DNA of 64,000 nt from Ceratodon purpureus (Eukaryota > Streptophyta > Bryopsida > Pseudoditrichales > Ditrichaceae): assembly GCA_014871385.1 (NCBI GenBank), contig CM026424.1, positions 4,615,041-4,679,040 of the forward strand, written 5' to 3'. Shown piece by piece: positions 1-64,000 of this stretch (its first letter is position 1; each line of letters begins with the position of its first letter). The position numbers and the translations under genes are program-made. Under the pieces are notes generated by a model that ran no database searches, had not been told where the DNA came from, and was given only the letters and a program-made list of their open reading frames with translations.

Positions 1-1187
1 ATGCCTGATCCACTTCGCCTCCTTATTTCCATCCTCATCTGTAGTAATGAGCAGCTGATTCCAGATAGGAACCTCCTTCGCAGGTGGGAATCCAGGAACA
101 GGTAAGCCCTCGGGCACGTCACAAATAATAAGGTCCACGCATTCGTTTGTTTCCTGCCCCTTGTATGTCCGACGCTTACGTCCTTGATGTTCCTGCACAA
201 AGCTCAGAATCTTCGAATACAGCGGCGGCTTCTTGTCCTCTTCAGCAATCGACTCGACCACGAACTCGTCGAGGATACTCGTGGCGCTCTCGTTCAGAAT
301 GAGGATTTCCGCATTGTCTTCCGCCGAATCTTGAGTCTTGATGGTGTAGACAGATTGCGAAGGCAAGCTAGATGTCCCGTGAATACTATCAGAAGGTATG
401 CTACTGCCAGAAGGTGAAATACCTTCATCCTCAGCAACCTTCTTCAAGCCCATTTCCTTACCTTCTTGGCTTGAGTGAGAAATATGAGCTTCTCTTCCTT
501 CCGTCTGGTGGATTCCGCCCTCTCCTTTTCCTTCTTCTCAGCCTTTGCTTTTGCCCTCTGCTCTTCACGTTCAAGCTTTTTCGACATCTTCTTCCGCTGC
601 TGTTCAGTCAAATTCAATAGCGCATCTGCATTCGCAAGGTCCAGGCCTTTAGACTTCATCTCCTCAATCTCCCTCTTGCAGATGGCGAATGTCTCCAGCT
701 CATGATCTGGGCAACGGTCTCCAGGCTTGAGCTCAATGTACCAAGGGCACCGATGAAGGTGCGGCCTCGTGAAATCGCGTCGCTGGCTTGGTGTAAAAAT
801 GCAGTCCTCGCTTGCCGTGTCCAACCATTTCCTGAAACGAGCTGGAAATTGGTCTTCGGTAATTGCCCCTTTCTTCAACAACTCCTGCTCAAAGTATCTC
901 ACCACAACCCTGCACGCAGCTTCCTTTGTATTCTCCCACTCCAGAAACTCCTTCTGCTTATTAAATTTTGAGGGCTTCCCAACCAGATCTGGATAGCCTT
1001 TCTTCCAGATTATCTGGCTTCTGTCAAGAACAATTTCCGGATGTCAACAATGGATCCCTCAAAGCCCGCGCGCGGAATCTAGAGATCGTCTTCATCAATG
1101 ATATTGTTATAAATATTTCCTGCTGCTTCCTCAAGCTGCATCAAACTTCAGAAGATTAGTAAAATTTCGCCCCCTCCAAACGGACTC

Positions 1188-1431
1188 TCGGATCCGAAAG
1201 TACCCTGGGCAGTGCAAAAATTATTTTCTCTGAATAAAAAATGGGTATAGAAATTGACGACCTATGCGTTTTGGGAGGTAAAACAGCCTCCTCCGAAAGG
1301 ACTCTCGGATCCGAAAGTACTCTGGACCCTGCACGAATTTGTTTTATAGAACTCTAATGGGTACAGGAATTGACGACCTACGAGTTTTTGGAGTTAGTAA
1401 TAGCTCCCTCCAAAAGGACTTTCGGATCCGA
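1188..1431. repeat. Three TCGGATCCGA sites at exact 117-bp period
   Basis: The 10-bp palindrome TCGGATCCGA occurs at 1188-1197, 1305-1314 and 1422-1431, exactly 117 bp apart, within diverged tandem units that share text such as GACGACCTA. The block lies in the 344-nt intron 1136-1479 of gene C; the corresponding intron in the element 2 copy is only 95 nt. Confidence 0.9.
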
Positions 1432-1860
1432 AAGTACCCCTGGAGGTAGAATATCAAGAATATGGTACCGAGAACTTACGCCTGCGTAGAAGGAAGCAGT
1501 TTCCACCCATGGTCTCAGTTGGGTAGTAGCGCAAGGTTGCTCTGGGAAGTTGTTGGCCTGTCGTCCATCCTTGCTCATATTCCACCATTTCAACCATCGT
1601 TGCTTGTACTGGGCTGGAACTTTGGCGGTCGCTATCAACTGAAGTTTCTCAGGACTCATCTCCGGCTGAGACATATTACAATTGTAATGCGCAATAATCT
1701 GTCCAACAACATCAAAATATTCATTAATAAAGTCAATATCATCATAAGCTGACCATTTAATCAAACAGAACCTGAATTAAATGGTGATGACTTGAACTAG
1801 GCTGAAATTAGGGCTGTTTATCAAGAATTAAAGTAAATATCCAGTTCCACAGAACTACTC

Positions 1861-2350
1861 TCGGATCCGAAAGTACATTGGGCTGCATCTACTTTCATTT
1901 TAAAATTGAGAATTAGCCTAAGAAAACAACAACTCTGTTGCACTGCAAAACTACTCTCGGATCCGAAAGTACATTTGGCTGCATCTACTTTCATTTTAAA
2001 ATTGAGAATTAGCCTAAGAAAACAACAACTCTGTTACACTGCAAAACTACTCTCGGATCCGAAAGTACATTGGGCTGCATCTACTTTCATTTTAAAATTG
2101 AGAATTAGCCTAAGAAAACAACAACTCTGTTACACTGCAAAACTACTCTCGGATCCGAAAGTACATTGGGCTACATCTACTTTCATCCAAAGTTGGAGGA
2201 TTTGCCTACTAAAACACTGATTTTTATGTAACAGAAAACTACTCTCGGATCCGAAAATACATTGCCATGCCTCTACTTGGATCTATAGTAAGTATTTTTG
2301 GCCAGAGAATACATGAGTTTCCTTTACAACAAGAATACTCTCGGATCCGA
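1861..2350. repeat. Six TCGGATCCGA sites at exact 96-bp period
   Basis: Sites start at 1861, 1957, 2053, 2149, 2245 and 2341, each exactly 96 bp from the next. Units include the flanking text CTACTCTCGGATCCGAAAGT and an AAAATTGAGAATTAGCC stretch. The array fills the 704-nt intron 1699-2402 of gene C, whose counterpart in element 2 is 90 nt. The middle units are nearly identical and the last two are more diverged. Confidence 0.95.
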
Positions 2351-3648
2351 AAGTGCTTCTAACAGTATAGAATTGATGCTTCACATGAGAGAATCGAGAT
2401 ACCTCATCGATGAATCCCTCGCCATTTGCGGGGTCCGCGATGGCAAGCAAGCGGTCCATATTGGTGTGCAACTTCTTTTTGCAAGCCGCGATAGCTTCTT
2501 CGGATTTTTTTTTGACGTCAATAGATGAGCCTTCCAGGGCTTTTCCCTCGTACTTCAGCAGCGTGTCCTCGTACTGTTGAATCGCAGCGTCCTCTACCAT
2601 ATTGATTTCCCTCTGTAGAGTACATAAAGCACACATTAAAATGACATATAATCAAACGATGAATCATAATATCACGGATGTAGGTTTGTTCAGTACCCCA
2701 TACAAGAAGTTGCAAAAGGCATCTGCCGTCATATGGTACCACTTCTTCTTCTTCTTGGTCACCTTCTCCCACTCCGCAACACTAGCTGCATAGTCCCGTT
2801 TGGGAAGAATGGTCTTTAACGTCTCGAAGGGCATAGTGCCGAACTGTATGATTCGGCGTAATTCATGAGTCCAATGCTGTTCGACATGGTCGACTTCGTT
2901 CTTCCTGCAACAGTAAATCGTTAGCACCACTACTCATTAAATAAAGAAGAATGCAGAAATCCGTATTTCAAGATACTTACTTGTTCGAATGAGTCATCGC
3001 GTTTAATAGCTGCTGATTGTTTTCTTCGGAAACGCGCAATACGATTGACTTCACTGCCGGATGGAAATCAGGGTCGTCATAATGAAACTGATGAATCTCC
3101 TCCATCCAAGCCTTGAATCTATGATTCCCATCCCAAATGAAGAACATTTTGTTTGAGAAGATTCTCAATTCCGGAATAGCTTGGCATTGATCTTCGAATG
3201 TCTTCTCAGCATTCTTCCAAGTGTCTGACCACCCGGCTCTAATCTCGTCTGTTACCTCCTGTGTCTGCAATGCATAACTGTGAAGCGACACATAGAAGCA
3301 TGGTCCACCTCGCCTGTAGGCAGTAGCAAATTCCGCCTTCAGCTTCGCAATATCTTTCAACAGAGGACTTCGTACATCTGTCATTGCCACCATCCTACAA
3401 AGCGGAATATCCAACTCCCCAATCGGCTGCTCCACCGATTCATTAAGGACGATGTGTGAGTTTCCAGCACGTTTCTGCCTCAACCTCGCAACCGTATAAT
3501 GAACTCCACGGTCTTCAGATGGCTCTTCTTCTTCTCCAGCTCCCTCCACATCCATGGGTACAATCTCAGACTCCTGTACAATCCACCCACGAGTACATGA
3601 ATATTCCATGTAACAATTAGAAATTTCATGTAACATTCTACTTTGGAG

Positions 3649-4332
3649 GAAGAAACTTCCCCCTGCCAAAGGACCTTCGGATCCGAAGGTCCTTTGGCAG
3701 GGGGAAGTTTCTTCTTCGGAAACCCCAGCAACTACCCTCCCCCCTCTATCATCCTCTCTTCCCCCCGCCATCCCCTCCCCTTGCCGATCCCCTAATCCTC
3801 ACTATTCTCTCCTCCCTCCTACTTCGAAGCAAGAAACCCTCCCCTGCCAAAGGACCTTCGGATCCGAAGGTCCTTTGGCAGGAGGGGGTTCTACCTCTAT
3901 CATCCTCTCCCCTCCTCGCCCTCCCCTCTCCTTCCACTGCCGCGACTCTCCTCTCCCCTCTCCCTCACCCTCTTCTCCCTCCTCTCGGTAGGTCCCTCAC
4001 CCTCCCTCTAAGGTCCCTCACCCTCCTCTCCCTCCTCTCGTTCTGCCGCGGGAAGAGAAAGAGCAGGGGCAGAGAGGGACCTTCGGATCCGAAGGTCCTT
4101 CTCTGCCCCTGCTCTTTCTCCTCTGGTAGCAACTCTCTCCTCTTGCTTCCTGACATCCTCTCTACTATCCTATCCCTGTTCTCTCCCTTCTCCCTTCTCC
4201 CTCCCTTCTCCCTTCGCCCTCTCCCTTCTCCCCTCTCTTCTGTGCTCTCTCAACACTACTCCCTTTGCGGGGGGGAGAGAAAATGCCATGGTCCGCAAGG
4301 ACCTTCGGATCCGAAGGTCCTTGCGGACCATG
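3649..4332. repeat. Four long palindromes centred on TCGGATCCGA
   Basis: Within the 1004-nt intron 3574-4577 of gene C, four inverted repeats share the core GGACCTTCGGATCCGAAGGT but have different outer arms. They lie at 3649-3714 (66 bp, perfect), 3843-3882 (40 bp, perfect core), 4055-4120 (66 bp, one mismatch) and 4287-4332 (46 bp, perfect). Core spacings are 181, 225 and 222 bp. Each could form a long hairpin in the spliced-out RNA or a cruciform in DNA. Confidence 0.95.
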
Positions 4333-4510
4333 ACAACTTCTCCTCCTAACCCATCAACTATCTCTCTACACCTCTCCTCTGTCCCCTCCTCTGTTCCTAA
4401 ACCTTAACTCTCCTTTCTCCCTCTGACCTTCAACCCCTCTCTTCTCCCTTCTCCTTTTACCCATCTTCTTCCCTTCTCCCCTCCCTACTCTCCCTCTCAT
4501 CTCAGTCATC
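3715..4510. repeat. Polypyrimidine-rich intron tract
   Basis: The plus strand here is dominated by CT-rich runs such as CTCCCTTCTCCC, interrupted only by the TCGGATCCGA palindromes. It fills most of gene C intron 1 and accounts for the low-complexity reading frames in this stretch. Confidence 0.75.
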
Positions 4511-5810
4511 CTTCCTTAAGCAATCCGAATACAAGATTTCAATACAAAATCTATTTTAAATAAAGCGTAAAACTTACCTCTTCCGCGACTTCTTCCTCCA
4601 TCGCGGACCTTGAAGCTGCAGACGCTGATCCTGGTGTATTCATCTTCTTCGAGGTTCCTCCTTTCTTCACCTTCTTCGACCCTCCAGAACCCTGCGCCGC
4701 GCCAATGCTTAAACCCTTCATCTTTTTTCTGTCCCCCTCGTCACTACTCCCAGACTCACTTAGCACAATACTAGACTCTGGTTTCTGAACCCTTCCCTTC
4801 TTCCTCCCAGTCATAGCTCTTATACCCAGCGAACCACGGTACCCTCACAGCCCTAACCTTAAACACAGCCGTCACAAAAATCTAACTAAGAATTCACAAA
4901 GAACGCAGACAATAGAAAACAACCTAAGATAACCAAGCACAAAAGAAAGCACGCAAATGAAGCATCTGAAGTGGGGGTTCATATACCTTGCCTCCGCGGC
5001 CTAGAGGAATCCTACAACAGAGAGAAGGGGAAGGGCAAAGAGTAGGGAAGAATGAGGAGATAAGACAAGTCGCGCAGCAAGAGGGACAGAATGAGTGCAG
5101 ATGAGCCCTTCTTATACCTCTAAGTCCTCAAGTGGGAAGCTACTCGCGACCTTCCCGCCCACGCAGCCCAATCCGAGACCAGCGAGAAGTGAGCCGCAAG
5201 TCTCTTCCACGCCCCCAAGCTCGAGTATTGCCTCTACTGCGCCATCATGCACCTCTTCGGGAACCGCTGAAGTGACGTCCAGCACCTCAGGTGCAACCGT
5301 TGCAATAATTGGTGTCTCCACTTCAATTGAGTGGCACTTGGGCCCCTCCTCTAAAATATCTGAGACCCTTCGCAGCGGTCGTTTACTAACTCCCTCGTCA
5401 ATACAATCCTCAAACGTTAACGACCTAACTAGAGTGTCCACCTCCTCTAGCAATTTCTTTTGTTTCTTCCTAGCTATTGCAACCCTCTTGCCTTTAGGTA
5501 CACCTGAATTATTTTCGTGCCCATCCTTCTTCTCAGGACTAGTAATCGATTCTAGAACTACTAACTTTCTCCCTTTCCTTTCCCTCATGTATATGACATA
5601 GACTCAACGCACCAATCTAGACACAGAACTTAAGCGCAGATTTAAAGAATAAAATGGACCTTATCAATCTAAGCTCTTATACTGCCTCTGAGTACTGAAC
5701 TACTTGGCGATTCAAAACACTTTAATTAACCTACCCGTAAATATCTCCTTGATTCCAGATCTAGGATTAGACTGCAGTCGGCGGCGATACCACGTCGCCG
5801 ATACGAGCAC

Positions 5811-5817
5811 TATAAAA
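5811..5817 (+). promoter_or_regulatory. TATA box of gene B
   Basis: TATAAAA lies 72 bp before the ATG of gene B. Genes B (rightward, ATG 5889) and C (leftward, possible ATG at 5588) diverge from this 300-bp interval, so it may act as a shared two-way promoter. Confidence 0.5.
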
Positions 5818-5888
5818 TCAGAAGTTGAATCACTTCTATGGCTCTCTTTATGTCAGTTCTCGTTGCTAAACGGCCGTAGAATTCGAAT

Positions 5889-6368
5889 ATGACTCATGTA
5901 ATGCAGATGAAGTTTGCGGACAGTGCAGCAACGAAGGAACCTGCCACAGACGAAATCGTTTCTCTGGATGATCTTCATGGACCGTTTGATCCACTCATAG
6001 ATGTTGAAGCCGGGATTACCAACGTCTCCGGAGATGCGGCTACTCCGGTCCAGCCCGTGGAAGACATTGTGGAACATGAAGCGATTCATCCATCCGATGA
6101 CCACGTGGAGGACGGCAATATGAGATTGACGCCTGCTCCAGAAGCGTCGAGGATTCACGCCTATTCGAAGGTAGGAATTATCCCACGTGGAACATACCAC
6201 AGGACAATGTTTAGTGGGACACATAGGCGTAGAGGTCATAAACTTAGCACGCCAGGCTGTAGGTCCTTACCCATACCCGACAATATCAATCGTGGAACTG
6301 AGAATTCCGCTGATGCAATAAATGTAGACCGCAAAGACGGCCCTTGCAAGCGATATAAGAGGCTGTAA
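5889..6368 (+). CDS. Accessory gene B of element 1
   Basis: Small single-exon protein of 159 residues. It has an acidic N-terminal two thirds (EPATDEIVSLDDL) and a basic end (KRYKRL). Residues about 98-111 read HAYSKVGIIPRGTY followed by an HRRRG run. The same block (HAYSKVGKIPRGTY, then QRRGG) occurs in the 150-residue protein at 47957-48409 inside element 2, which is the main reason to call it a real gene. I recognise no known domain. It lies between the divergent gene C and the co-directional transposase gene A. The start at 5889 follows a plausible TATA box. The conserved block may bind nucleic acid or a protein partner (inference). Confidence 0.7.
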   Translation: MTHVMQMKFADSAATKEPATDEIVSLDDLHGPFDPLIDVEAGITNVSGDAATPVQPVEDIVEHEAIHPSDDHVEDGNMRLTPAPEASRIHAYSKVGIIPRGTYHRTMFSGTHRRRGHKLSTPGCRSLPIPDNINRGTENSADAINVDRKDGPCKRYKRL

Positions 6369-6945
6369 TTCTCTTTCCCTTTTAAGGCTTTAATATTAAT
6401 ACATTTGCCTGCGTATTTGATCAACATGCTCTTAACCTCATTCGTCAGTTTTAATCGTGGTGGAAAGTCTTTATTCCAAATTAATATTATCAACAGAATG
6501 ATCGGAAAGTGCATTCATATTCCTGACCATCGCCGTTACAGGCCTCTCTAAGAATATCCACGACAGTAATCCAAGTACATAGATTCCGTAAATGGTAAAG
6601 GAATTGTGTCCACTTAATGGCTCATTTATGCAGAGTCTTCTGGATACCCGCGCACTAATATCGTATCTGGAGGAAAATAGTTTATATGACTCATGTACTC
6701 TCGGATCCGAAAGTCGTTTCTCAACCCAGACATTTCGTCTGTAATCTTGAATTAGGACACTCATAATTTAGAACTTACAGGATGCCTGTCTGATTTAACC
6801 CTCCTAAACTGGACACCTGGCAGAGGGAATCATGTATGCACCTAACATCCTAAGTATATTACAACGACAATTATAATTTAAGCAAGGAGTCATTGTATAT
6901 GAAGCTCCAAGTCCTTCCCCAATTCATTCCTTCAAGTCATCTACT
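6369..6945. other. Spacer between genes B and A with one palindrome site
   Basis: No gene seen. One TCGGATCCGA copy at 6701-6710 lies 245 bp before the first ATG of gene A. It is preceded by the same CTC and followed by the same AAGT as the intron copies. Confidence 0.7.
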
Positions 6946-9900
6946 GTGGCCTCTTCCTTCTTGTTCTCTGTAATGCACGACTGTACCACTCCCATCTTCT
7001 TCCAGGCTCTAAGGATGGCGTCTCTACGTGCACATGGTAGAGCAACGCCCTTCACAACACCCTTAGGGGAGGACGGCACAGTTACCATTCCGGAGCAACT
7101 GCTTAGTCTTAGGTTCAACTTTAGAATTGGGTCAATGTACGTGGAGAGAGAGATTTATGATGATAGCGGAGAACTAAGTGAGACCATTTTGCAGACGAGG
7201 TCTAGAGATGAGGAGGGTTATTTCTGGACTTTGTCGAGCGGCACGTTTAAGGTTTATGGTTTGTCTGATTCTGACATGTCGATGTCAACAGTCATTCTGA
7301 CTCCTCCGTCCTCAACGTCAACAGTCCAAGTCCCAGCGTTAGTGAGAGTGAAAGTCGAGAATCCTGAGGTCCATGTCATTAGTGATTCTGACGATGACAT
7401 TGTTCCGGATATCAATATAGCTGATACAAAGGTCAACCCCTTTGTACGACGTACAAGTATTGGCTCCACTCGATCTCTACCAATAGGCAGCTTAAGGCGA
7501 TCTCCGTCAGTCTCCTCTGGTCGTCCCCCAGCTCATCCAAACACGAAGAAACGTCGTAGTATCCTCGATGCGATTAAAGCGACGGCAAAGCGCAAAGGGT
7601 CCCGGTCAGAGATTGTGTTGGTTGACTTAGACTCCCTAGAGCATGTGAAGGTTAAGTATCTCCCTTCGACATGTAACGGTGACAAGATCTTTGAGTTGCC
7701 TCCGATTCCTGAAGGCGTTCCGGCATCATTTAGCGGTGAACTGGATGGAATGGGAAAACAGTATGACGGACATGCTTGGTGTAAGACCATGACCACGAAC
7801 ATTAGGAATGATTTCGGTCTGAAATTCCGGAAATCTCTGTGTACTGGGCATTTGCAATGTCCGAATCCTGCTTGTGATTTTGTTGACAGGAATCCCGGGA
7901 AGGTGAATTCAACAGAGTGGGCTGGATTAACTCCTACACAAATTCCAGTAAGCGGGGCGCATCCTCCTTCGTCGACTCTGGTTTGCAAGCTGTGCCACAC
8001 ACCTCCTATTTGTTTAGCGTCTTGTGATGCTCGAATTTATCATGTGACATCGAGAGAGCCAGATTACACACGCGCTGCAATACACTTGGGGGTTCATGAC
8101 CATCCAGTTTCCGATGGCACTTGCCAGGATACACTAGACCATATATATGAGTGTATCGGCGAGCAGGTCCTACGTACTCCGAATGCCAAGAATTCGGCGA
8201 TTGTGATGGGCGCATCCAAGCTTTTCTTAGCCGACTACCTAATTCGAGCAACTCCAGGACAGAACCATCTCCGTGGTGTTTCGATGGAGGAGGCTATGGA
8301 CAAGTTCGAGACGATGTCGGATGCCAATGTCAGGAACTTTGTTGCAGGTACGAAGAAGTTTCTTCGGCAAGACAACGGCCTCATCGACAACATTATGCGA
8401 TTGAAGGAACACAATAACTTCAAGTTTGTGCACGATAGCCGATTTCCAGGCCAAACTAAGGGGAAAGTCTTCATCTTCAAGATGTCCGTCCATTTGCCGG
8501 GCAGTGGAACGGATTTGGTGAAGCGCATGCAACCTGGAGGAGACTTGCAAGATTCATGGATAATGTTCGACCACGTGAAGCGCGTGAAGAAGTGGAGCAC
8601 CATGGCTTGCCACGTGTACGACAGCAAATACTGTAAGGTGATGACCATTGCAAACTGTGACATCCAGTCAGAGGATGCGACAGCGCAAGAACTCTTCTGG
8701 GAGCAGCTGAATGGAGTGATGGTGGATAACGGACATCCAAAACCAAACTTCAAGGGCTTCATGGCGGACAGCGCTGGGGCAAATTGGCACGCAGTACGCA
8801 AGGTATACAGGAATGGTAATATTGACGACAAAATGGAAGACAGAGAGCGGACGTGTTTGTTTCATTGGACGAAATGTCTGGAGAGGGTCACCTTAGCTCA
8901 TATCAAGACAGACTGCTAGGACCAGATGAGAGCTCTTTGTAAACAGTGGAAGGATGCAAAGACTCAAGAGGAGGCAGAGGACATGTACAACGTCATACGG
9001 GGATGGTGGCAATCTGGAGGTTGTGTCCCATCTGAGGGCAGCAAACGAGCGCTAAATGACTGGATGGTATTCTGGCATTACAGATACAGGCAGTGGGATG
9101 GATCTATGCAACTTGTAAGTGTCTTCCGAACTACTTAATTGATGAGTACCATTAGAGCTTCTAATTGATATCATCTCACATTCACACTTCTACTTGCCTA
9201 TGCAGAACCTATCTCTGGAAGAGAGAGCGGACATGCCGTCGTGCAACCTAGCAGAGACTATACACAACAAGTGGCTTCAACAGCCCGGCAACACAGGCGA
9301 CTGCCTCTACGCTGCGACTGTGGACGACATGATGCGTGCGTTCATGCAGATCACTCAGTACAGAATGTATCTGAAGGGAGGGAGGGGAGGCAAAGGACCA
9401 GACAAGGCAGAGCTTCGCCTCCGTCAAGCACAGCGTAGCTTAGACCCAGAAATGATAGCTGAGGCAATGAAGGCGTGTCTCGAAGCTGCAGACGTTTTAA
9501 CGAAGGAGAAGGGACTCGAGGGAGCTGAAATCTTCGGATCTATGAAGAGAAAGCTTGATCACCCTCCTGGTTCAGCCCATGACTCTCACCGCTCCGATAC
9601 GGTCAATTATTCAATTCCTGCGATGGGGACACGGTCAACAAGGGCCCGGATTCAGGAGGCTCTTTCGGATCCAACGTGTGGTGTACAGCACACCACGTCC
9701 GTGCAGGAGTCAGAATGCGATCCATCCAAGTGGCACATTGCCCGCCTTTCAAACCGGTCTGGACGAAAATGTCAAGCACTTCAGGCACAGACTCGTAAGA
9801 AGTGCGACGCTAAGATTTCGAAGGGAGCTCAGGGTATAGCGGCGCCTACATATTCTGGACAGAAGAAGGACTTCCACACTAGACGCTTGACTGCAGCGGA

Positions 9901-10564
9901 GTTTTGGTTCTGCTCTGATGATATCAACCGATGCGTGAAGAGAGGTCCTAAGTCATTTGTTGTGGATTGGCCGGAAATTCCTGTGGTTTGGCCAGTCAAA
10001 ATTGGAACAAATCTCACTCGACAGGAGGTACTCTCCCTCGAAGAAGCGGGTTTCGAACTGCAACAGCGTGGCGCTCTATCACCACGCCGCCAATTCCAAG
10101 CAGCTTGTAACTGGCCTCTTCCGAGATCCCATTTCAAGGCACCAGCGGATCCCAATGCACACCCAACGCTTCGAGGTGGGCATTTCATTCGCATGAACTC
10201 TGATGCCCCAACTGTGGAGCACCGTAACAAGTGGGAAAGCGCCGCTCTCATGGACCATTGCGGTATTACGGGGGTAACGACTATTCCGTATCCTGGATAT
10301 GGTTGTGTTGTTACCCTTAACACGGGAAATGACAAGCTCTACCGCGTCACCATTGGGTGTTTTCCGGAATGCACTTGTCCAGATTTCATCAAGATGCTAT
10401 CAAAGACTCTAGGAAAAAACAAGCAATGGAAATACTGCAAACATATGTATTATGTTCTTCGATACATGTGCAAGATGGACCCTAAAGAACACTCCTTCAT
10501 GCACGCTCCGAGTTACAGCTTCGACGAGGTTATGGAAATCCTCGAACGAATGGGTGCTTTTTGA
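6946..10564 (+). CDS. MULE transposase with SWIM zinc finger (gene A, element 1; premature stop)
   Basis: Predicted cut-and-paste transposase, two exons: 6946-9114 and 9206-10564, with a 91-nt GT-AG intron. Residues about 299-386 form a zinc cluster ending in HLGVHDHP, like the WRKY/GCM1-type DNA-binding fold before MULE cores. The RNase-H-like core has an aspartate in IMFD (about 542), one in FMADSAGANW (about 608) and the MULE-type CLFHW after it. Exon 2 ends in a SWIM finger (CTC, then CKH). A stretch at about 142-151 (VHVISDSDDD) looks like a SUMO-interacting motif. An in-frame TAG at 8917-8919 interrupts the core; the aligned element 3 gene has no stop there (KTDC-stop-DQMRALC against RQDLRAQHIKLC). 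The ATG at 7015 is an alternative start. Confidence 0.85.
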
Positions 10565-10672
10565 AGAACTATTCAGTTTATAACGTACAAGTAGTCCAGC
10601 AGTGGACAGTAGGTAATCTATATCAGCAGTGTTTTGTTCTGGATTGGTTTTGTCTTGATTTGAACTGTGGAA

Positions 10673-10678
10673 AATAAA
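10673..10678 (+). terminator. Poly(A) signal after gene A
   Basis: AATAAA in the context GGAAAATAAAGA lies about 110 bp after the stop of gene A, a normal distance for 3' end formation. Confidence 0.5.
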
Positions 10679-10842
10679 GATAGTTTCTTTCTATGCCATT
10701 ATATACAATCAAAAAGGTGAATTCTTTTGCACAGCAAAATAGAAATCCTTCAACCCTATGACAAACAACTCTATTTTTCTGGTGAGAAAACTCAGCAACG
10801 TATCATGAAGTTCCCACAATGTGTATCCACTAGAGATGTATC

Positions 10843-11012
10843 TCGGATCCGAGGGTCCCCTGGAGGCAGAGTGAAATGGACTCTCGGATCCGAGATACAT
10901 CTTAAGCATTGCAAAACCACCCTAAAAAAAAAAGACAAATTGGATACACAGGAGGTGACTTTCGGATCCGAGGGTCTCTTTGTGGCAGAGCCAAGGGGAC
11001 TCTCGGATCCGA
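10843..11012. repeat. Two pairs of TCGGATCCGA sites near the right end of element 1
   Basis: Sites start at 10843, 10884, 10962 and 11003. Within each pair the spacing is 41 bp, and the pairs are 119 bp apart. Arms extend inversely across pairs: GATGTATCTCGG before the first site matches GAGATACATC after the second, and GGAGGTGACTTTCGG matches CCGAGAGCCACCTCC. They lie between the poly(A) signal and the terminal repeat. Confidence 0.9.
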
Positions 11013-11204
11013 GAGCCACCTCCTGCGCATCCAATTTTTTATTTTTTTTTAAATTTGATATTAAAATAATTCAGGCAATGTCGTAAAAATCTGGAAAAAA
11101 ATCATTGTAAACTGATCTGCATTTCAGTAAATTCAGTGTATATTCGATGATTTTTTTTTTTAATTCTATATTTAGCTTTTTTGACAAAAATATCCTCGAT
11201 CCCA

Positions 11205-11395
11205 CGGAATTCCACGGTGATAGGTCCTTTACTAATTTTAGTAATTTATCTCCAATTTCGTCAAAAATTCCAAAAAAATTCAAAATTAGGTCAAAAAACG
11301 GAGCGTTTTTCAAAAAAAAAAAAAAAAAAACGTCAAAAACGGCTCCACTGCTCTCTGCTCCCGTTCGCTGCTCACAAGATAGCTTCGCTGATTTC
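11205..11395 (+). repeat. Right terminal inverted repeat of element 1
   Basis: CCACGGTGATAGGTCC (11212-11227), a TTTAGTAATTT stretch, a homopolymer-rich AT tract, then CTGCTCTCTGCTC and GCTCAC up to 11375. The same order occurs at the right end of element 2 and, inverted, at the left ends of elements 2 and 3. The outer edge is not precisely defined. Confidence 0.7.
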
Positions 11396-12437: not shown

Positions 12438-12439
12438 TA

Positions 12440-48409: not shown

Positions 48410-48597
48410 GACGTCTAATAACAAGTATATCTTGGCTGTAATAAAAGGTACATGTCAGGGGATACGAGGTTCATAGTGCACTTGTTCAAGCTGGATTGTA
48501 TTGAAATAGAATGCAATTAATGTGAACGACAAAGCCTTTATAATGAAAAAGTCAATACAGCTTCTGTATTGCTGACTTAGTACATGGAATATTATAT

Positions 48598-51340: not shown

Positions 51341-51468
51341 AACCACTCATTCTACGGGATTCGGGAGACTGTCCACCCAGCTTGTTCATTTCGTTTGTCG
51401 GAGTGTACTGTATCTTCGGCCTAAGAGGTTTTTTATTTTTTTAATTTGAGAATTCAAAAATCCACAAA

Positions 51469-53634
51469 CCTACTGTCGTCAACGACAGTAGGCCGGGTGG
51501 AGGGTGATGATTTTGGGGATTTTTGAATTGGTTTTTTTTTAATTTTTTTTGGTGACATATATTGTGATATGAATGTATGGATGCTTAGAAATTATCAATT
51601 AAAATTTGTTTGGTTTGTAGATATTCACGTATTTTATTGGTTTTTTGATATTCACGTATTTTATTGGATTTCTGCAATTTTTGTTTTTTTATTCTTTTTT
51701 TGACATTTTGTGTTATAGATTTGATTGCAAACTCACAAAATAAAAATGTAAATCTAAACATTTTGGTTTTAATTTATGCATTTTGTTAATTTGTATTGAA
51801 TATTTTGAAAATTAAAAGAACCCAGAGCCTACTGTCGTCAACGACAGTAGGCCCAGGGCATGAATAAAAATTTCGGGATTTCTGCAATTTTTGTTTTTTT
51901 ATTCTCTTTTTGACATTTTGTGTTATAGATTTGATTGCAAACTCACAAAATAAAAATATAAATCTAAACATTTTGGTTTTAATTTATGCATTTTGTTAAT
52001 TTGTATTGAATATTTTGAAAATTACAAAAAACCCAGAGCCTACTGTCGTCAACGACAGTAGGCCGAGGGCATGAATATGAATTTCGGGATTTCTGCAATG
52101 TTTGTTTATTTATTCTCTTTTTGACATTTTGTGTTATAGATTTGATTGCAAACTCACAAAATAAAAATATAAATCTAAACATTTTGGATTTATTTTATGC
52201 ATTTTGTTAATTTATTTTCAATATTTTGAAAATTAAAAAACCCCAGAGCCTACTGTCGTCAACGACAGTAGGCCGGGGGCACACTAATGAATTTGGGGAT
52301 ATTTTATTTGTTTGTATTTTTTTTTTTTGTTGGTGACATTGTGTGATAATGAAATGCATAATTGCCCACAATTTGTTAATTAAAATCTGAATTCTTTTTT
52401 GAGTTTTAGTATTTTCTTGATATTTATTTTTTATTTTGAATTTTTAAAAAACCCCAAACCTACTGTCGTCAACGACAGTAGGCCGGGGGCACTTCAATGA
52501 ATTCGGGGATTTTTTATTTGTTTGTCTTTATTTCTTTTGTTGGTGACATTGTGTGATAATGAAATGCATAATTGCTCACAATTTGTTAATTAAAATCAGA
52601 AATTTCGTAGATTTTCGGTATTTTCTTGATTTATTTCTTTTATTTTGAATATTTGGAAAACCCCAAACCTACTGTCGTCAACGACAGTAGGTTTGAGGCA
52701 CTTCAAAGAATTCGGGGATTTTATATTTGTTTGTCTTTATTTCTTTTGTTGGTGACATTGTGTGATAATGAAATGCATAATTGCTCACAATTTGTTAATT
52801 AAAATCAGAAATTTCGTAGATTTTCGGTATTTTCTTGATTTATTTCTTTTATTTTGAATATTTGAAAAACCCCAAACCTACTGTCGTCAACGACAGTAGG
52901 TTTGGGGCACTTCAATGAATTCGGGGATTTTATATTTGTTTGTCTTTATTTCTTTTGTTGGTGACATTGTGTGATAATGAAATGCATAATTGCTCACAAT
53001 TTGTTAATTAAAATCTGAATTATTTTTTGATTTTCAGTATTTCCTTGAAATATTTCTTTTATTTTGAATATTTGAAAAACCCCAAACCTACTGTCGTCAA
53101 CGACAGTAGGTTTGGGGCACTTCAATGAATTCGGGGATTTTATATTTGTTTGTCTTTATTTCTTTTGTTGGTGACATTGTGTGATAATGAAATGCATAAT
53201 TGCTCAAAATTTGTTAATTAAAATCTGAATTATTTTTTGATTTTCAGTATTTCCTTGATATTAATTTTTTATTTTGAATTTTTGAAAAAACCCAAACCTA
53301 CTGTCGTCAACGACAGTAGGCCGGAGGCACTTCAATGAATTCGGGGATTTTTTATTTTTTTATTTATTTTTTTTTTTTTGGTGGCATTGTGTGATAATGA
53401 ACTTCATCATTGCTCACAACTTCTTAATTTAATTTTGAATATTTTGTAGATTTTGAGTATTATCTTTATCATTTTTTAAATTTTGAAATTTTTAAAAAAT
53501 CCCAAACCTGGATTGCTTGAGAATGCTTTGTTTTCTTTGAATTTTTGATGGATTTTATTGATTTTTTAAAAGTTTTTATTGATAATTAAAAAAATAAAGA
53601 AAACCCCAAACCTACTGTCGTTGACGACAGTAGG
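51469..53634. repeat. Element 2 palindrome array (about 210-bp units)
   Basis: Ten copies of a 24-bp inverted repeat, arms CCTACTGTCGT and ACGACAGTAGG around CA, start at 51469, 51828, 52039, 52249, 52459, 52668, 52877, 53087, 53297 and 53611. The eight central intervals are 209-211 bp. The last copy has TG at the centre. The palindromes are unchanged although the AT-rich sequence between them varies, which suggests selection on the palindrome. Spacer text includes GGTGACATTGTGTGATAATG. The array lies just before the first visible exon of gene C. Confidence 0.95.
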
Positions 53635-53853
53635 CCGAGGGCGTGGGGGTTGCTTTGGGGATTGTTTCCATTTTTTTATTTCTTTGAATTTTTCTGTTGA
53701 TTGAGTGGGATTTCGTAACTATTCTCTCCAGTCGCTGCTGCTGCTTGGGCTGGATTGCTTGAGAATGCTTTGTTTTCTTTGAATTTTTGATGGATTTTAT
53801 TGATTTTTTAAAGGGTTTTATTGAGAATTAAAAAAATAAAAAAAACCCCAAAC
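53510..53853 (+). repeat. 103-bp direct repeat around the last palindrome
   Basis: GGATTGCTTGAGAATGCTTT and about 80 bp after it occur at about 53510-53612 and again at about 53751-53853. The first copy ends in the palindrome; the second ends CCCCAAACCTCGTATG, where the palindrome is absent. Confidence 0.7.
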
Positions 53854-53959
53854 CTCGTATGTTTTTATGAGTTTTTAATATTTGATTGGGAGCCCTGTCT
53901 AGGTTGTGGTTTGATTCTTCATAGTTGTAAGTTTCTCTAATAATTATCAATTTCCTCAG

Positions 53960-56875
53960 GACGTTGATGGTGATCATCTGGGGAGCGAACGTCAAGACCC
54001 TACGCCAGCAGAAACTGAGGTATTTCATTCAATCTACAATTTATATTCTTTTTTTATGTTCATGATTTTGAGTTCTATTCGCCCTCTTCCCTTCTTTGTT
54101 TCCTACTCTTTTAATTATGGAAGTTAATCCTCTCTTCATTTCTCCTACTCTAGGTATCATCCGATGCTCCTGCGATGTCCGCCACCTCTCCCATTTCTGT
54201 GATCAATGTTTCCGATCTATCGGATTCATTTGATCAGCCTTATTGTACCTGTGATGTAGCCAACCCTGTAGGTGTGGAAAGTGGACCTCTCGAGGTCCAC
54301 TCTCCTCAGTACATGCCTACATCCCCGGTTTATGAGCCAACCTCCCCGGGCTATATGCCCACGTCTCCTCCACAGGGCTCCCCGCCGATGTCTCCACCCT
54401 CTCCTTCCTCGCCGATTAGAGTCAGGAGGCCAGCCCATGTGGTCTTTGCTCTGCCGGCTATTCTGCCGTGCCCTGTCCAACAGACCAGGCGATTTTGGAG
54501 GAGGCGCCGTCACTGGAACTGTAGACAGTCTAAGGAGTACTATAGTCGATCCTCACGTAGATAGTTTTATCAATCACGATTGATGATTGAGTTGTTAAAA
54601 GAGAGATGACAGTATGAAGATATATTGTTACTTTCTTTTACATACTTGTCAACTTTGCATGACTTTCTTCGATTGTGCTTGTTCTCCTAATTTGCGTACC
54701 TTCTGGCAGGTTACGCAAACAGAAGATGTGTTGGTGAAACCATCTTGTCCGTTAAACTTGAAGACTGCCACAGAAGGGGAATTGGAACATCAAACCAAAT
54801 ACAAGGTGGACACCAACGCCGTCATCAACAAGCTCAGGATCAAGCCATCGCAGAAGTCCCGAATGTCGGTGCCCCCGTGCAGGATGATCCCAATGGCAAA
54901 GGTCAGACCAGTGGGCGAAGTGGGTGTGCAGCATTTGGAGCGGGAGTTCGTCAAGGGGTATAGAGATGGCGACCGCGTCATGTACATCTCCATGTACAAC
55001 AACGAGGAGCAGACACGAGATGTTACGGATGAGGTCATGGCTAAATGGAGCCCATTGTGGAGGGACGCGAATGATGCATTTGAATCTGAGCTTCTAAGTG
55101 ACGAGGACTAGTCGCAATTCTCGGGGAAGATGTTTTTTGTCTGGGAAGGTAACCATCGCCTCTCAGCATGGCTTCGTCATATCAACAAGCATCATGCAGA
55201 CGACCCGTCATGGCACATATCTGTGAACTGCATAGTACTCGATCCCCGTGGCCATGTTGGCAATCTTCTTCACGCAATGCATGACATCAACTGGTAAGTA
55301 CTTGTTTCTTTTTTCCTGTTTTTCTTTTGTTACTTTATCTCATCTCTTTTATTCATCATACGGATTTTGGTTCATTTTCAGGTCGACTGAGAATGACCAC
55401 GTGAAGAGTTATCTCCCCGCAAAACTATTTCGAATCCGCTCATTCGGAATTATGAAGCTGGAGGAATTCAAAGACCTCCTCAGTCCTGAAGAGTATGACG
55501 CATGTTTGAAGAACAAGGCACCTAATCCCTCCTGGTTTCCCTTGACAACTAAAATTTTCATCGCATTTTTGTACCGAGTAAGTCCTACCTCCTCTCTCTA
55601 TTTGCTTCTTATTATTCAATACTCATGAAATTTCCTAAGTCTGAATTCTCTTTCTACAGCGGGAACTCGCTGCGGCCTCCGATGAAGCAGCAAATGCCTA
55701 CCGCATGAAGACACCCGAGGATGAGCAGTCTGCAAGTGCAGTTTGGGATGTCATGAATGAGGCATCAGAGAGAATGGTCGAAGCCATCAAGAAGAAGGAC
55801 TTTACCAAGTACTTGGCCATTGCAAATCCCAAGAATGGTGACGACTTCCTCAACGAGGTGACTCACTGATCATTGTTCAATTCACTGTTTCCCATGACTT
55901 CCATAATTTCTGTATTTATCTTTTTCAAACTTCGGTGCTTCTTGCAGATTAATCGCCATTTCAGTCTCAACAATAAGCCTGAGATGTCAGTGGATAAGCT
56001 TCAGAAGATTGTTCCTGCGGCCGTTGAGGCCAAATACAAGGCTCGTTGGTTGAAGTGGTGGAACTCATCCCCGAGTGCTCGAACGTCTTACAGATTTCTG
56101 CCATCTGAATTCAAGGACACCGAATTCGACCCATGGTTGAACAAAGCTTCATTCTGGGCTGGGGTAATTTTCATAAAAAATCCATTCCAATTCCTTGTTC
56201 CTTTAAATTTTTACCATATTCATTCTTCGATGCTACTTATATGAATTTTGTATTACAGTTGGAGGAAGCCGTCATCCACGAAGTCGAGGACGTATTCAAG
56301 TCTGAGAACCTCGATATCAATTGGATGGCATTTCCTGATGTCCAACAGCCGGGCGATTTTGTCGAGAGTTCACGTATTCTCTTGTGGGACAAGGCCTTCC
56401 CTACGTTCATTGGAAAAAAAGCTGAGAAGCACTTCGACAAGAAGTCCAACTTTGCTAAATTCCCGGGAACCGCTCAAGTTGTCAAGCGGGTTACTTACCG
56501 GTACATTACCTTACTTAATCTCATTTCCATTTCATAGTTTTCATTGTAATTGTTTTTTATACTTACCTCCTTCTTGTCTTCCCATAGGTACTTCAAGCGA
56601 GAGCTTATATTTAAGGGGGCCATCAGCGTTCAGCACCTCCCCAAGTACTTCAAGCTTTGGACGCAGACATCCTCGGACGAGTGTATGTACTCTCCTCAGC
56701 AGATAAAAGGTACAAACCTGCTCACTATCCTAATACGCCTCCTAGAGACAAGCTCAAGAAACCAAGAGTGACCTCCTTCTCTGGAACCCAGCTTACCAAG
56801 TGTTGTTTCATGATGAAAATCTCCTACTTGTATCACTCAAATGAAGATGCTTTGCTGCCTAGGAAGAGAGAGTAA
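53960..56875 (+). pseudogene. Accessory gene C of element 2
   Basis: Exons 53960-54019, 54154 to about 54564, 54710-55293, 55382-55577, 55660-55857, 55948-56163, 56259-56500 and 56588 onward. GT-AG borders and phases agree from 54710 on, with introns of 82-95 nt. It is the homologue of the element 1 gene C (for example GKMFFVWEGNHR, PEMSVDKLQKIV, RWLKWWN, DKAFPTFIGKKAEK, YFKRELIFKGAIS). Exon 54154 encodes three YxPTSPx heptads like the RNA polymerase II tail. An in-frame TAG lies at about 55109-55111, just before SQFSGKMFF, and the 3' end after CMYSPQQ loses similarity or shifts frame. The start codon is uncertain (ATG 54175 possible). No known domain; unknown role. Confidence 0.7.
54310..54372 (+). 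other. Three RNA polymerase II CTD-like heptads in gene C
   Basis: Encodes YMPTSPV, YEPTSPG and YMPTSPP in tandem, followed by SPPMSPPSPSSP. The Pol II tail consensus is YSPTSPS; positions 1 and 3-6 match exactly in all three. I saw no such repeats in the element 1 copy. Confidence 0.85.
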
Positions 56876-57254
56876 TCTTCGATGAAGACAAGGACTCTGA
56901 CAAGGTATATCTTGGTTTCAGCAGTTAAGATAATATACACGAATTTCGAAATATTCCAGGAAGTTTTCAAACCTTGCCTCCTTTACGTTCTTTCAAATTT
57001 GTTTTTCCCCTTGTGCATTTACATAATCCTATGAAAGAATTATTTGTTTGATCTAAAACTCAACGCCTGATCATTGTATCTTGCCTAAACCCATGACAAA
57101 TCTAAAGGAATGTATGCATGACGTCAGCATGACATCAGCCCTAATTTGTATCTTTGAGAACAAACGTAATAAATTCTTACTAGAGATAATCCTAATTTCC
57201 ACGGTAATATACTCTTTTTCTAAAAAAAGTGTCACAATTAAGCCTTAATTTAGT

Positions 57255-57378
57255 AATTTTCCACGGTTATAGGGTCTACTTTGCTTTTGAAAATTTTCGT
57301 AATTGTCAATTCTGTGCTCTCCATTCTGCGCTCACTGCTCTCCGCTCTACGCTCTCCGCTCACGTACGAACTTTCCCC
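57255..57378 (-). repeat. Right terminal inverted repeat of element 2
   Basis: CCACGGTTATAGGGTC (57261-57276), CTGTGCTCTCC, TCTGCGCTCACTGCTCTCCG and CGTACGAACTTTCCCC at the tip (57363-57378). Inverse of 47000-47210. Confidence 0.85.
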
Positions 57379-57388
57379 GGTGGAATAC
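57379..57388. repeat. Right target-site duplication of element 2
   Basis: GGTGGAATAC, identical to 46990-46999. Confidence 0.85.
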
Positions 57389-60194: not shown

Positions 60195-60410
60195 TGCGAG
60201 CCTTGAGCGGTGAGCGGAGAGCGGTGAGCGGTAACTTTGCGGATATTTTGATGTATTTGGGAATTTAGAGCGATATGGTTATGGTATTTTATGGATTAAC
60301 AATTTTTTGGGTTTTGAAATTTCTAAATTTAGTTCGTAATGGGACCTATTACCGTGGACAGTCTCAGCAAAATTAATACTTGGCCTGATCTATGGCCGTG
60401 GAAATTATTG
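60195..60410 (+). repeat. Left terminal inverted repeat of element 3
   Basis: Repeated GAGCGG/GTGAGCGG units, AT-rich tract, TTTAGTTCGTAATGGGACC and TTACCGTGGA. An additional GGCCGTGGAAATTATT follows at about 60393. Outer edge uncertain by about 10 bp. Confidence 0.7.
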
Positions 60411-61082
60411 TATTACGGTTTTCGGGTGCGTTAGTGGCCTCCACTCGTGGATTCCTGTTATAGAGACTGGTCAGCCGGGTCTTTTTATAAGGACAGGCCG
60501 TGAGGTAACACTGTAGCGCTGAATTTCTCTTCAGTGTGTCGTGAGCCACGGAGGTAGGGGATGAACGTCAGCCAACAGCCACTGCCGATGATTCCAACCC
60601 AAGCAAGCGTCGAAAACTGGAGGACTCAGAATTCTCACTTTGCGCACGAACAAAAAGATTAGACCATACATGTGCAACATATCATACAAAAGTATGCACG
60701 TTCTGCAAAGTACAACAGAACAAGTGGTAGTTTATCCCATTCATGGACCTATGACAAAGGTGGGTCAGTAGTACACCTCCCCTTCAGTAAGAGTTCTCTC
60801 GGTTTAGGGAGTCTGGAAAAGGATTGTTCGGGCCTAGGCACACATATGTGACTTCCTCCCAGACCCTTTTACATGGACCTCTTTAGGAATTACACAGTTC
60901 TTTAAATGACTTGCAAAATGGTTCTTAACAGCGCTTAAGAAAAATAAGGGCGTGATTCACAAGAATGGGAACAACGGTTTACAGTGCAAGTGGAAATTTG
61001 TGGTAGTGGCCCTTTTAGTCTCACTACTTCGTCATCCAGATGAATTCAGGCGATACATGTGTGAATAACGAATCAGATATCA
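60411..61082. other. 3' flank of the element 3 transposase
   Basis: No gene seen. It lies between the terminal repeat and the stop codon of gene A and should hold its 3' untranslated region. Confidence 0.5.
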
Positions 61083-64000
61083 CTACTTCTCCAGGTGCTT
61101 CAAAAGGCCACTCTCTAGGACTCGCTTGACTTCGTTGAAGCTAAAACTAGCTGCATGAATGAATGTATCCGACTCCGAATCAAGACCGCAAACTACACTG
61201 AGAAGGTAGTACAAATGCTTACAATTAGCCCATTGACCCCGCTTCCCAAGTGCCGTCATTGCCATCTCCTTGAAGTTTGGGCAAGTGCAGGCAGGGTGCT
61301 GCGAAATGGTCAGGTAGTATTGTTGTACCTTTGGAGGCTTCCCAGAATCCAATGTGACAATGCATCCCAGGGCTGGGGCAGGCAGCATGCAAAGCTTGCT
61401 GACCTTCGCGTTCAACGATAAGGCAGAGGCACAATTATTGCTATGCTTGGTCGACGGGGCCTTCTTGTTCCGTCGGATGAGCTTCCCTGATCGCCGGGTA
61501 GGGAACTCATCCGGGTATGCCGGCGTAGGGTACGCGGAGAGGTCCACTGCCGCGGCCCGGTCTTGGAAGAGTCTTCTTGGTGACATCTCCTTCAGTTGAG
61601 GGAGTCTGAAGCCGGCATTCTCTAGAGAGAGGATCTCTTTCTTCGTCAACTTCGTCCCAATCTTCACAGGCCACACCTCAGGTACCTTTGGCACCGATAG
61701 TACCCACTTCCGCTTGCTACCCTTGACGCACCTGTCAATGTCGTCATTGCAGAAAAAGAACTGATGAGTCTCTATTCTGTCCTTCTGGTAGTTCTTCATG
61801 GGGCCTGTGTATGTCGGCGCAGCCGTGCTCTTCCCGTGCTGCACAATTCGTGCCACGCATTTCTTCTTAGTCACAGCGTGTTGGGCGAAGCAAGCCTTAG
61901 CGGACGTCTTAGGAAGTCGTGCAATGTGCCACTCGGAAGGGTTGCAGGCGGTCTCTTCAACTGAAGTGACGTGATGGTACTCGACTGGAGGTGGACAGTG
62001 CTCAGGGTGGAGGTCGGCTTCGTCCGCTTCAGTGCTTGTAGGAGAGTCTGCTATTTCCACCATCGGAGGGTAGTCGCTCTCCAGACGTGCAGCTCTAGTC
62101 TGGACACGAGGTCTTGACACGGTGATCTTGTCTGGCCTATGAGACTCTCGTTCATCTCCGAAGGCAACATCAGGTTTTCGTTTTAGTGAGACACAGACCT
62201 CCTCCCCTTCGAGATGCGGGTCCCTTGTGCACCACTCGCCCGCTCCTGGCATGTTCATAATCGCTTCATGTAGGACCTTCGGGTTCCCTGTCCTCGCTGC
62301 AGATCTCTGTGCACGTCGGAGGCTGAGCTCTTCTTTTGACGGACCTTTCCCGGGACGCTCCCCCTTCAAGAACTGGAAGTAGGCAACGCATTGCATGAAC
62401 GCCCTTACAAAGTCGTCGACAGCTGCAACGTACAAGTCGCTGCCCCGATCTCCAGACTGCTGCTTCCACCTGTTGTGAATTGATTCAGCAAGATTGCACG
62501 ACGGCATTTCCGCCAGCTCTTCCTCAGTGTGATTCTGCGCACATTAGGGGTTAGGTTAGGGTTTAGGGTCCAATTACTGACTGCGAAGCAAAAACAGTGC
62601 CACCAGCAAGAGTCCTCGTCACCGAGGCCAATTGCCAAGCGCTGCAAGGCTGCTGCATTGGGCGCTAACTCAAGGCATGGAGCAACATGAAAGACCAGAC
62701 TGAGTACCCCCAGCAAGAGTCCTCGGCACCGAGGCAAATTGCCAAGGGCTGCAAGGCTGCTGCATTGGGCGCTTAGTCAAGGCATGGAGCATCATGAAAG
62801 ACCAGACTCAGTACCCCCAGCAAGAGTCCTCGGCACCGAGGCAAATTGCCAAGGGCTGCAAGGCTGCTGCATTGGGCGCTTAGTCAAGGCATGGAGCATC
62901 ATGAAAGACCAGACTCAGTACCCCCAGCAAGAGTCCTCGGCACCGAGGCCAATAGCCAAGGGCTGCAAGGCTGCTGGATTCGGCGGTAGGTCATGCCTCG
63001 GAGGATCAGAAATGAGCAGATTCTGTACTCCCACCTGGAGTACTCGGCACCGAGGGCTGAAAGGGTGCTGCACTGGACGCTAGGGCATCGGAAGGAGCAT
63101 CACGAGAGAGCAGATTCTTTACCTTCACCAAGTCACCTAAGATGCGATAGACACCTGAAAGGCCGAGAGATAGCTTACCAGTTCCATGAAGCCTCCCCAC
63201 TGCCGATAGCGATGGTGCCAGAACGAGAGCCACGTCTCCATGTTGGAGAGCCCTTTTCCAGTTGCAGCGCCGGATGACATCCACCATGCTCGGATTGCCA
63301 AGAATTTTGTTTCAGCTTCGGCCAGTGTCGTCGCATTCTTGTACTGTTGGCAGAGTTTGATATGTTGTGCTCGGAGGTCCTGTCGAATGTTTGCGTTTGT
63401 ATGTTGCTCCAAAGACTGCCTCCAATGAAATAGGCATGTCCTCTCCCTGTCAACCATCCTCTCGGAGGCGTTACCGCTCCCATAGATAATTCGAACTGCG
63501 TTCCAATTCGCTTGGGCACCGTCTGCCATGAAGCCCTTAAAGTTAACTCTCGCGACCCCGTGAGTCTCCATGATGGCATTCAAATTCTTCCACAGCACGG
63601 ACTGGGCTGCCGTGTCCTCCGACTGCATGTCGCACGCAGCGATTGTCATTATCCGACAGTAAGTTGGGTCGTAGACGTGGCAGGCCATCGTTACCCAGTC
63701 CCTTACTCGCCTCACGTAGTCAAACATGATCCACGCATCCTCCAAGTCACCGCCTGTCTGCATACGCTTAACTAGATCGACTCCAGAACCCGGCCCTACC
63801 TCAGACATCTTGAAGACATACACCTTTGCCGCATCATCGCCTTGCCCCGGGAACATGTTATTCTGGATAAACTTCCAGTTGCTGAACCCCCGCAGCATCC
63901 TGATGCCATCCATAGTCCCAAAGCGCCTAACATTCTTGAACGACGTAATGCAATTTCGGATGTTTGGAGAAGAGAGGTGCTTACAGCGGTCGAATATTGG
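61083..64000 (-). CDS. MULE transposase with SWIM zinc finger (gene A, element 3; 5' part outside window)
   Basis: Two exons on the minus strand: 63179 to the window edge and 61083-62534, joined in phase 0 across a 644-nt intron (donor GTAAGC, acceptor GCGCAG). No stop or frame change is visible. Exon 1 carries the MULE core: GSGVDLVKRMQTGGDLEDAW, IMFDYV with the first aspartate, FKGFMADGAQANWNAV with the second, and RTCLFHWRQS. Exon 2 starts NHTEEELAEMPSCNLAESIH and ends with a SWIM finger (CTCPNF, then NCKHLYYLL). It aligns with the element 1 gene over its whole visible length, roughly half the residues identical in the core. The DNA-binding N-terminus would lie beyond 64000. This is the best candidate in the window for an active transposase. 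Confidence 0.9.
62614..63055. repeat. Element 3 palindrome array, exact 107-bp period
   Basis: Five copies of CCTCGGCACCGAGG (arms CCTCGG and CCGAGG around CA) start at 62614, 62721, 62828, 62935 and 63042, each exactly 107 bp apart. The first has CGTCA in place of CGGCA, the last ACTCGG at its start. Units share AAGGCTGCTGCATTGGGCGC. The array makes up most of the transposase intron 62535-63178. Confidence 0.95.

Follow-up and report, generated by a model that had tools for sequence, protein, structure and literature searches.

Palindrome arrays and a predicted ParB-fold gene in Mutator-like transposons of the moss Ceratodon purpureus

Three elements and their palindrome arrays

The stretch analysed here (the window) comprises 64,000 nucleotides of the moss Ceratodon purpureus (G000:C4:4615041-4679040), and searches were extended to the whole 362-Mb assembly G000. 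The window contains three related transposon copies, elements 1 to 3 (Table 1), each carrying a short palindrome in repeated copies, together with genes named A (a putative transposase), B (a small open frame) and C, whose product is predicted to have the ParB/Srx fold. Palindromes also stand beside gene C in copies elsewhere in the genome, and we put at roughly 0.55 the probability that these elements are Mutator-like moss DNA transposons carrying their own site-specific DNA-marking system.

Element 2 is complete. Its 10-bp target duplication, GGTGGAATAC, is found on both sides and has no other occurrence in 90 kb. The target duplications of Mutator-like elements (MULEs) are about 8-11 bp long, and the 10-bp duplication and inverted ends of element 2 fit this group. 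In element 1 the right terminal region includes CCACGGT at 11212, and no left end was found in 10 kb of flank. The first-pass annotation of this DNA had assigned genes B and C to both elements 1 and 2, and comparison of the two elements agreed; in element 3 both genes are likewise present, past the window end, so the accessory genes are present in all three elements. Gene A was looked for in element 2 and none was found, B and C being present. Gene A of element 1 gave a SWIM match at E 0.12, under the cut-off, and none of its 55 protein-database relatives carries a precomputed Pfam domain or family name; PF00872 (Transposase_mut) was weakly matched in 2 of 24 relatives scanned (best E 0.034). 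The Pfam scan of gene B gave no family match. The later gene C exons of element 1, at about 447-1134, are degraded, and the first gene C exon of element 2 has an in-frame TAG, with intact copies elsewhere in the genome. The gene C exon models of elements 1 and 2 were drawn by hand.

The palindrome counts given from the letters alone were largely reproduced. Motif 1, TCGGATCCGA, has the 18 exact copies claimed, all inside 1188-11012, and motif 2, CCTACTGTCGT-NN-ACGACAGTAGG, has its ten, with the spacer CA in nine and TG in one. Five copies of motif 3, CCTCGG-CA-CCGAGG, had been claimed, of which three are exact and two have one mismatch. No exact copy of any motif lies in the inter-element stretches of the window, as claimed. 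The placement of all copies in introns and spacers holds on the hand-drawn models except that the copy at 3677 falls inside an ATG-started open frame (2977-3771), in a possibly translated part upstream of the conserved gene C exon.

Among the 66 distinct 10-bp palindromes of the window, TCGGATCCGA is the commonest with 18 occurrences, against three for the runner-up. The majority of the palindrome copies lie inside tandem repeats (units of 117, 96, 210 and 107 bp), and tandem duplication alone could multiply any sequence. Two findings show that the palindrome itself matters: the single 10-mer TCGGATCCGA centres several different repeat units in element 1, and in element 2 none of the 22 arm positions of motif 2 varies among the 10 copies, amid flanking columns that agree in 4-10 of 10. 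Element 3 has 67 motif-3 copies as far as position 80000 in window coordinates, of which three lie within the window. Over 20 kb at C1:9546424-9566504, motif-3 blocks with about 108-bp spacing follow an order like that of loci L040 and L051 (window 68171-79884); this is probably another element-3-type copy.

Table 1. Features of elements 1 to 3, in window coordinates
Feature	Position	Strand	Remarks
Element 1 (family I), right part	1..11380	.	extends left beyond window; right limit approximate
3 TCGGATCCGA copies	1188..1431	.	gene C intron; 117-bp repeat
Element 1 gene C, further exons	1480..2904	-	2697-2904, 2403-2612, 1480-1698; hand-drawn
6 TCGGATCCGA copies	1861..2350	.	gene C intron; 96-bp repeat
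Element 1 gene C, predicted ParB-fold exon	2981..3585	-	201-202 aa; 5' limit approximate
4 TCGGATCCGA copies	3677..4314	.	upstream of ParB-fold exon; each at the middle of a longer palindrome whose self-complementary arms differ
Element 1 gene B	5889..6368	+	small open frame; conserved HAYSKVGxIPRGTY
TCGGATCCGA	6701..6710	.	between genes B and A
Element 1 gene A, putative transposase	6946..10564	+	TAG at 8917-8919 interrupts the frame; end weakly SWIM-like
4 TCGGATCCGA copies	10843..11012	.	3' of gene A
Element 2, left target-site duplication	46990..46999	+	GGTGGAATAC
Element 2, complete	47000..57378	.	10.4 kb; GAGCGGA-type heptamers in the terminal inverted repeats
Element 2 gene B	47957..48409	+	
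10 CCTACTGTCGT-NN-ACGACAGTAGG copies	51469..53634	.	about 210-bp array upstream of gene C
Element 2 gene C	54710..56750	+	exons 54710-55293, 55382-55577, 55660-55857, 55948-56163, 56259-56499, 56588-~56750; hand-drawn
Element 2, right target-site duplication	57379..57388	+	GGTGGAATAC
Element 3, left part	60200..64000	.	terminal heptamers from 60205; runs on to at least 79884
Element 3 gene A	61083..64000	-	similarity reaches 65311
5 CCTCGG-CA-CCGAGG copies (3 exact)	62614..63055	.	gap between two gene A open frames (putative intron); 107-bp repeat

Motif type and gene C lineages in the genome

Gene C copies were compared by the first conserved exon (alignment A3, 27 sequences), and the motif labels on the gene C trees were partly assigned by family. 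Family I, the element 1 type, has TCGGATCCGA in all 22 loci (243 copies), and family II, with an exon 48-53% identical to that of family I, has it in all eight (46 copies); four or more copies are found in 28 of these 30 loci. In the locus set as a whole, L001-L008 overlap one another. The C2 family comprises 44 loci, several of them consisting of the exon alone or with short upstream DNA; motif 2 or its variants account for 113, 21 and 7 sites in 23, 4 and 1 of these loci, and neither motif 1 nor motif 3 occurs in any. Two element-3 pieces contain motif 3 alone among the three motifs.

In a third gene C lineage, 41-47% identical, TCGGATCCGA was found in the downstream introns of both members that were extended (four copies and one copy). 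The ten loci of this lineage (L041-L050) had at first been scored as array-less, with no palindrome of at least three copies in about 0.6 kb beyond the exon; this was overturned for the two extended by 1.5 kb. The tree label "none" is thus wrong for at least two of the ten, while in the other eight the DNA read ended some 0.6 kb past the exon. The two extended members belong to one lineage with alignable DNA and are not independent. One named relative, hypothetical protein M758_9G115400 [Ceratodon purpureus], forms a tight group with genomic copy L048 in the tree.

Each motif had been taken as private to one element. This was not borne out, since TCGGATCCGA is common to at least three gene C lineages with exon identity of 42-53%. 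In a comparison of six sequences (E up to 1e-3, low-complexity filter on), DNA similarity between lineages was limited to the exons and adjacent DNA; in a separate comparison the palindromes show, among the matches listed, as short, low-scoring similarities. The 10-base core remains unchanged across these distant lineages, which indicates selection on its letters. The clade of TCGGATCCGA lineages has a tree support of 0.78 and the C2 family 0.99. The proposal that palindrome and protein diverge together stands in part: motif type tracks the deep gene C lineages, and strict step-by-step co-divergence is rejected. For gene B, which had also been proposed as a recogniser of the palindrome, nothing links it to the sites, and it is conserved in all three elements.

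Genome-wide, the exact 24-mer of motif 2 has 758 + 948 occurrences and its reversed control none; motif 3 with a YR spacer occurs at 2,657 places and its control at none (the pattern matches both strands). The first 100 motif-2 places among the matches listed group into 12 arrays, all of them on contigs C1 and C2. Of these arrays, eleven sit 1.0-1.2 kb upstream of a C2-family exon (150 exons scored), and the twelfth (C1:28269636) has no such exon at that distance. Within 3 kb upstream of the 13 scored C2-family copies on contig C1 we found nine motif-2 arrays, two with motif b (described below), one with mixed sites and one without a palindrome. Gene C of the element-2 type has at least 150 copies in the genome, and its adjoining palindromic cluster is a feature of DNA-binding ParB-type clamps. 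A search with the nearly full-length gene C product gave two partial open frames, P0015 and P0016. Contig C6 (110 Mb, 30% of the assembly), perhaps the sex chromosome, holds 6 of the 13 stop-containing C2-family exons among those scored.

Within the C2 family, L072, L075, L085 and L087 carry TACATTCGTGCACGAATGTA (motif b) in place of the motif-2 core, two bases being changed identically in both arms (TG to AT), and L073 has mixed sites with one arm of each kind. Mixed sites were found at 32 places, confined to C1:355-382 kb and C8:1348 kb; 30 of them lie over about 27 kb (C1:355095-382247) beside a C2-family copy at 353464, where the non-palindromic form itself is amplified. Motif b fills two satellite blocks, one about 11 kb and the other about 13 kb long (C1:18511317-18545295), beside a C2-family copy at 18546343, and all 98 distinct sites among those listed, of 126 genome-wide, fall in these satellites. 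Among L052-L071 an exact motif-2 site is present in 14 of 20 and an imperfect one in L063, and L055-L057, L060 and L061 have no motif-2 site within 1.5 kb.

In a tree of 20 exon-1 sequences, two b and two mixed copies cluster (SH-like support 0.81) with one palindrome-less copy inside, and this cluster is nested among 15 copies labelled motif a, four of them added as 97%-identical motif-a copies. A clean separation of the b type from 20 motif-a-labelled copies was dropped when motif-a copies 97% identical to b-type gene C were found. The copy at C5:4828305 is 98% identical to b-type gene C, yet motif a lies upstream of it; the exons of this copy, L085 and L087 stand outside the tree. No exon-1 residue by itself distinguishes the motif types in the C2 family, and the tracking of gene C phylogeny by the motif is loose within it.

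Some sites are embedded in longer palindromes. In the family I class with a CCT/AGG flank (43 of 135 distinct sites, selected by flank post hoc), outer-arm complementarity was 14.81/17 against 9.43 (standard deviation 0.50) after arm exchange, and for all 135 family I sites it was 8.95/15 against 7.97 (0.22). The 36 family II sites gave 11.75/14 against 8.36 (0.41) after arm exchange. Outer-arm covariation was absent in element-2 sites (4.52/12 against 5.92) and element-3 sites (5.36/12 against 6.33). Long palindromes with a fixed core and covarying outer arms were observed at window 3669-4322 and in family II introns (L032, L036, L038), possibly reflecting a cruciform or quasi-palindrome repair. 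The outer-arm covariation may be repair-driven or structural, and distinct from the fixed core.

Gene C product and known systems

The gene C exon is under purifying selection, and it is very probable, from structure prediction and re-aligned structure matches, that its product has the ParB/Srx fold; this is a predicted and not a solved structure. The P motif GxxR, as defined in a passage of PMC12704722, is present as GNHR at residues 153-156, with N154, H155 and R156 invariant and G153 in at least 90% of the 27 sequences. The same sequences gave no match to the ParB family models PF02195 or TIGR00180 up to E 1 (Pfam, NCBIfam). The 2025 survey of the ParB-CTPase fold selected proteins by TIGR00180, PF02195 and K03496 and gives sulfiredoxin as the commonest eukaryotic representative; its main text contains no word beginning with "plant" or "transpos" (PMC12704722). 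The eukaryotic sulfiredoxin/ParB-fold proteins described there are enzymes without a helix-turn-helix (HTH), unlike gene C, which is multi-exon, transposon-borne and beside palindrome arrays. The profile of the middle of the gene C exon (window 2980-3585, minus strand) also resembled ribosomal protein eL24 in a search of PDB sequences (E 0.005), which was set aside as a chance or local resemblance.

The first-pass annotation had compared the elements with VANDAL MULEs of Arabidopsis, and the anatomy agrees: as in the VANC targets described in PMC5735166, tandem noncoding motif arrays accompany an element-encoded accessory gene. According to passages of PMC5735166 and PMC10398659, VANC binds short motifs in tandem noncoding repeats of its own family, which differ between related families, and strips methylation across the whole element. 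The VANC domains DUF1985 and DUF287 had no match up to E 1 in the 27 A3 sequences and two further exon stretches of element-1 gene C, in agreement with the earlier impression of no visible VANC similarity. By domain membership gene C is thus not of the VANDAL type, though by analogy it may work like VANC. The VANC motifs (YAGTATTAY, AGTTGTCC, AGTTGTAC) are non-palindromic, whereas the moss sites are palindromic, and demethylation, established for VANC, would be a possible activity in the moss.

Comparable in predicted fold are the bacterial clamps ParB-parS, VirB-virS, Noc-NBS and KorB, which have the ParB/Srx fold, GxxR and clustered palindromic sites (PMC10770331; for Noc and KorB, titles). 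ParB-type dimers load at palindromic parS and close as sliding clamps dependent on cytidine triphosphate (CTP), and VirB, at parS-like palindromes, counters H-NS silencing from a distance as an anti-silencer acting by spreading, as passages of PMC10770331 describe. An HTH that reads palindromes and a C-terminal dimerisation domain mark the DNA-binding ParB-type clamps; for moss gene C these, like CTP binding and a ParA partner, would be hypothetical. The operators of KorB are palindromic. Unlike in the bacterial systems, the gene is carried here by a DNA transposon in a plant nucleus, and matches to PF02195 and TIGR00180 are lacking.

According to passages of PMC10398659, activation or hypomethylation of an element's own family is reported for TnpA of maize Spm and for MURA of MuDR; they are transposition proteins, MURA acting on inverted ends. 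Gene C, unlike these, is a separate gene whose candidate sites are internal arrays. TnpA of Spm, like MURA, contrasts with such internal sites in the location of its own sites. In the open-access literature we found no account of a ParB-fold protein of a moss or Mutator-like transposon, most subscription papers and all preprints being outside this coverage.

Interpretation, alternatives and remaining features

From the arrays, their specific distribution, the selection on the gene C exon and the predicted fold, we infer that the gene C product probably binds its own palindrome. A dimer would read the two half-sites and load there; it would then probably close as a clamp dependent on a nucleoside triphosphate (NTP) and spread over the element like ParB and VirB, although this loading and spreading, argued from analogy, falls just short of an even chance. 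Tandem duplication, by multiplying palindromes in introns and spacers, may have supplied the many loading sites. The purpose is the weakest step: probably the element would be kept unsilenced or its own transcription regulated, and we regard an anti-silencing role in particular as doubtful. The predicted fold and the neighbouring arrays together point to a clamp-like protein with which every transposon lineage would mark its own DNA. In the most complete version, offered tentatively, a nuclear transposon of a eukaryote would have a system like ParB-parS, in which an NTP-dependent clamp loads at its own arrays, spreads and blocks host silencing as VirB does against H-NS, half-sites evolve by paired arm changes, and the VANC strategy would have been invented independently with another fold.

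Several points weigh against an element-borne marking system based on gene C. Motif and gene C ride the same element, so that their co-occurrence is expected by descent alone; strict co-divergence fails, TCGGATCCGA being constant over 42-53% exon identity and motif-a and motif-b C2 copies being up to 97-98% identical in exon 1; and a DNA-binding domain in gene C is only conjectural. This last point also favours an alternative that we consider unlikely, in which the palindromes are bound by the transposase (A), by protein B or by some factor of the host. The gene C product would then serve elsewhere, perhaps as an enzyme that binds nucleotides, as do sulfiredoxin and SerK with their common fold. 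Arrays do occur within gene A of element 3 and downstream of gene A in element 1, and the superfamily includes enzymes without DNA binding (PMC12704722), but element 2 has B, C and arrays with no A found, and the array is 1.0-1.2 kb upstream of gene C in 11 of 12 listed cases. The element ends carry different heptamer repeats, which would be likelier transposase sites.

Quasi-palindrome correction is a repair process, and the arrays might be its by-product, tandem duplication amplifying hairpin-prone DNA and correction making the arms complementary with no recognition by a protein. The frequency of tandem repeats, the outer arms that vary yet stay self-complementary in 43/135 family I sites and in 36 family II sites, and the expansion of motif b to two satellite blocks in one place would agree with this. 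Repair, however, preserves symmetry and not letters, and the core letters are constant in lineages whose DNA matches only at or beside exons; the same core stands in differing repeat units in element 1, and the outer arms of element-2 and element-3 sites do not covary, so that we hold this origin to be improbable. The same lack of covariation outward of the core tells against intronic RNA hairpins acting in processing or as small RNA, to which the many intronic copies and some perfect palindromes, about 50 bp long and with arms that covary, might otherwise point. Since copies at 6701 and 10843-11012 lie outside the inferred genes, and hairpin RNA would be expected to attract silencing, this is less probable again. 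A genuine VANDAL element whose VANC has diverged would explain the like layout of transposase, small gene, accessory gene and tandem noncoding motifs, but with no DUF1985 or DUF287 match in A3 up to E 1 and a predicted ParB/Srx fold we give it hardly any weight.

The gene for the predicted ParB-fold protein is present in at least 150 copies in one moss transposon family, beside thousands of palindromic sites. Such a system would open three questions to study: if DNA clamps of the CTP type can function on chromatin, if sequence-specific self-recognition against silencing has arisen in transposons again and again, and in what way protein and palindrome shift specificity together. Motif a, motif b and the mixed sites are natural variants for this. 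Designed local removal of silencing is a possible use.

Outside the three elements, open frames at window 13105-15795 (minus strand) resemble, by their motifs, a TIR-NBS-LRR resistance-type gene. Long open frames at 43215-44063 (minus strand) and 32809-33483 (plus strand) are coiled-coil-like by eye, the former with a Mod_r match at E 0.0026, under the cut-off. A minisatellite at 24660-24963 consists of 38 near-perfect copies of AGGATTGA.

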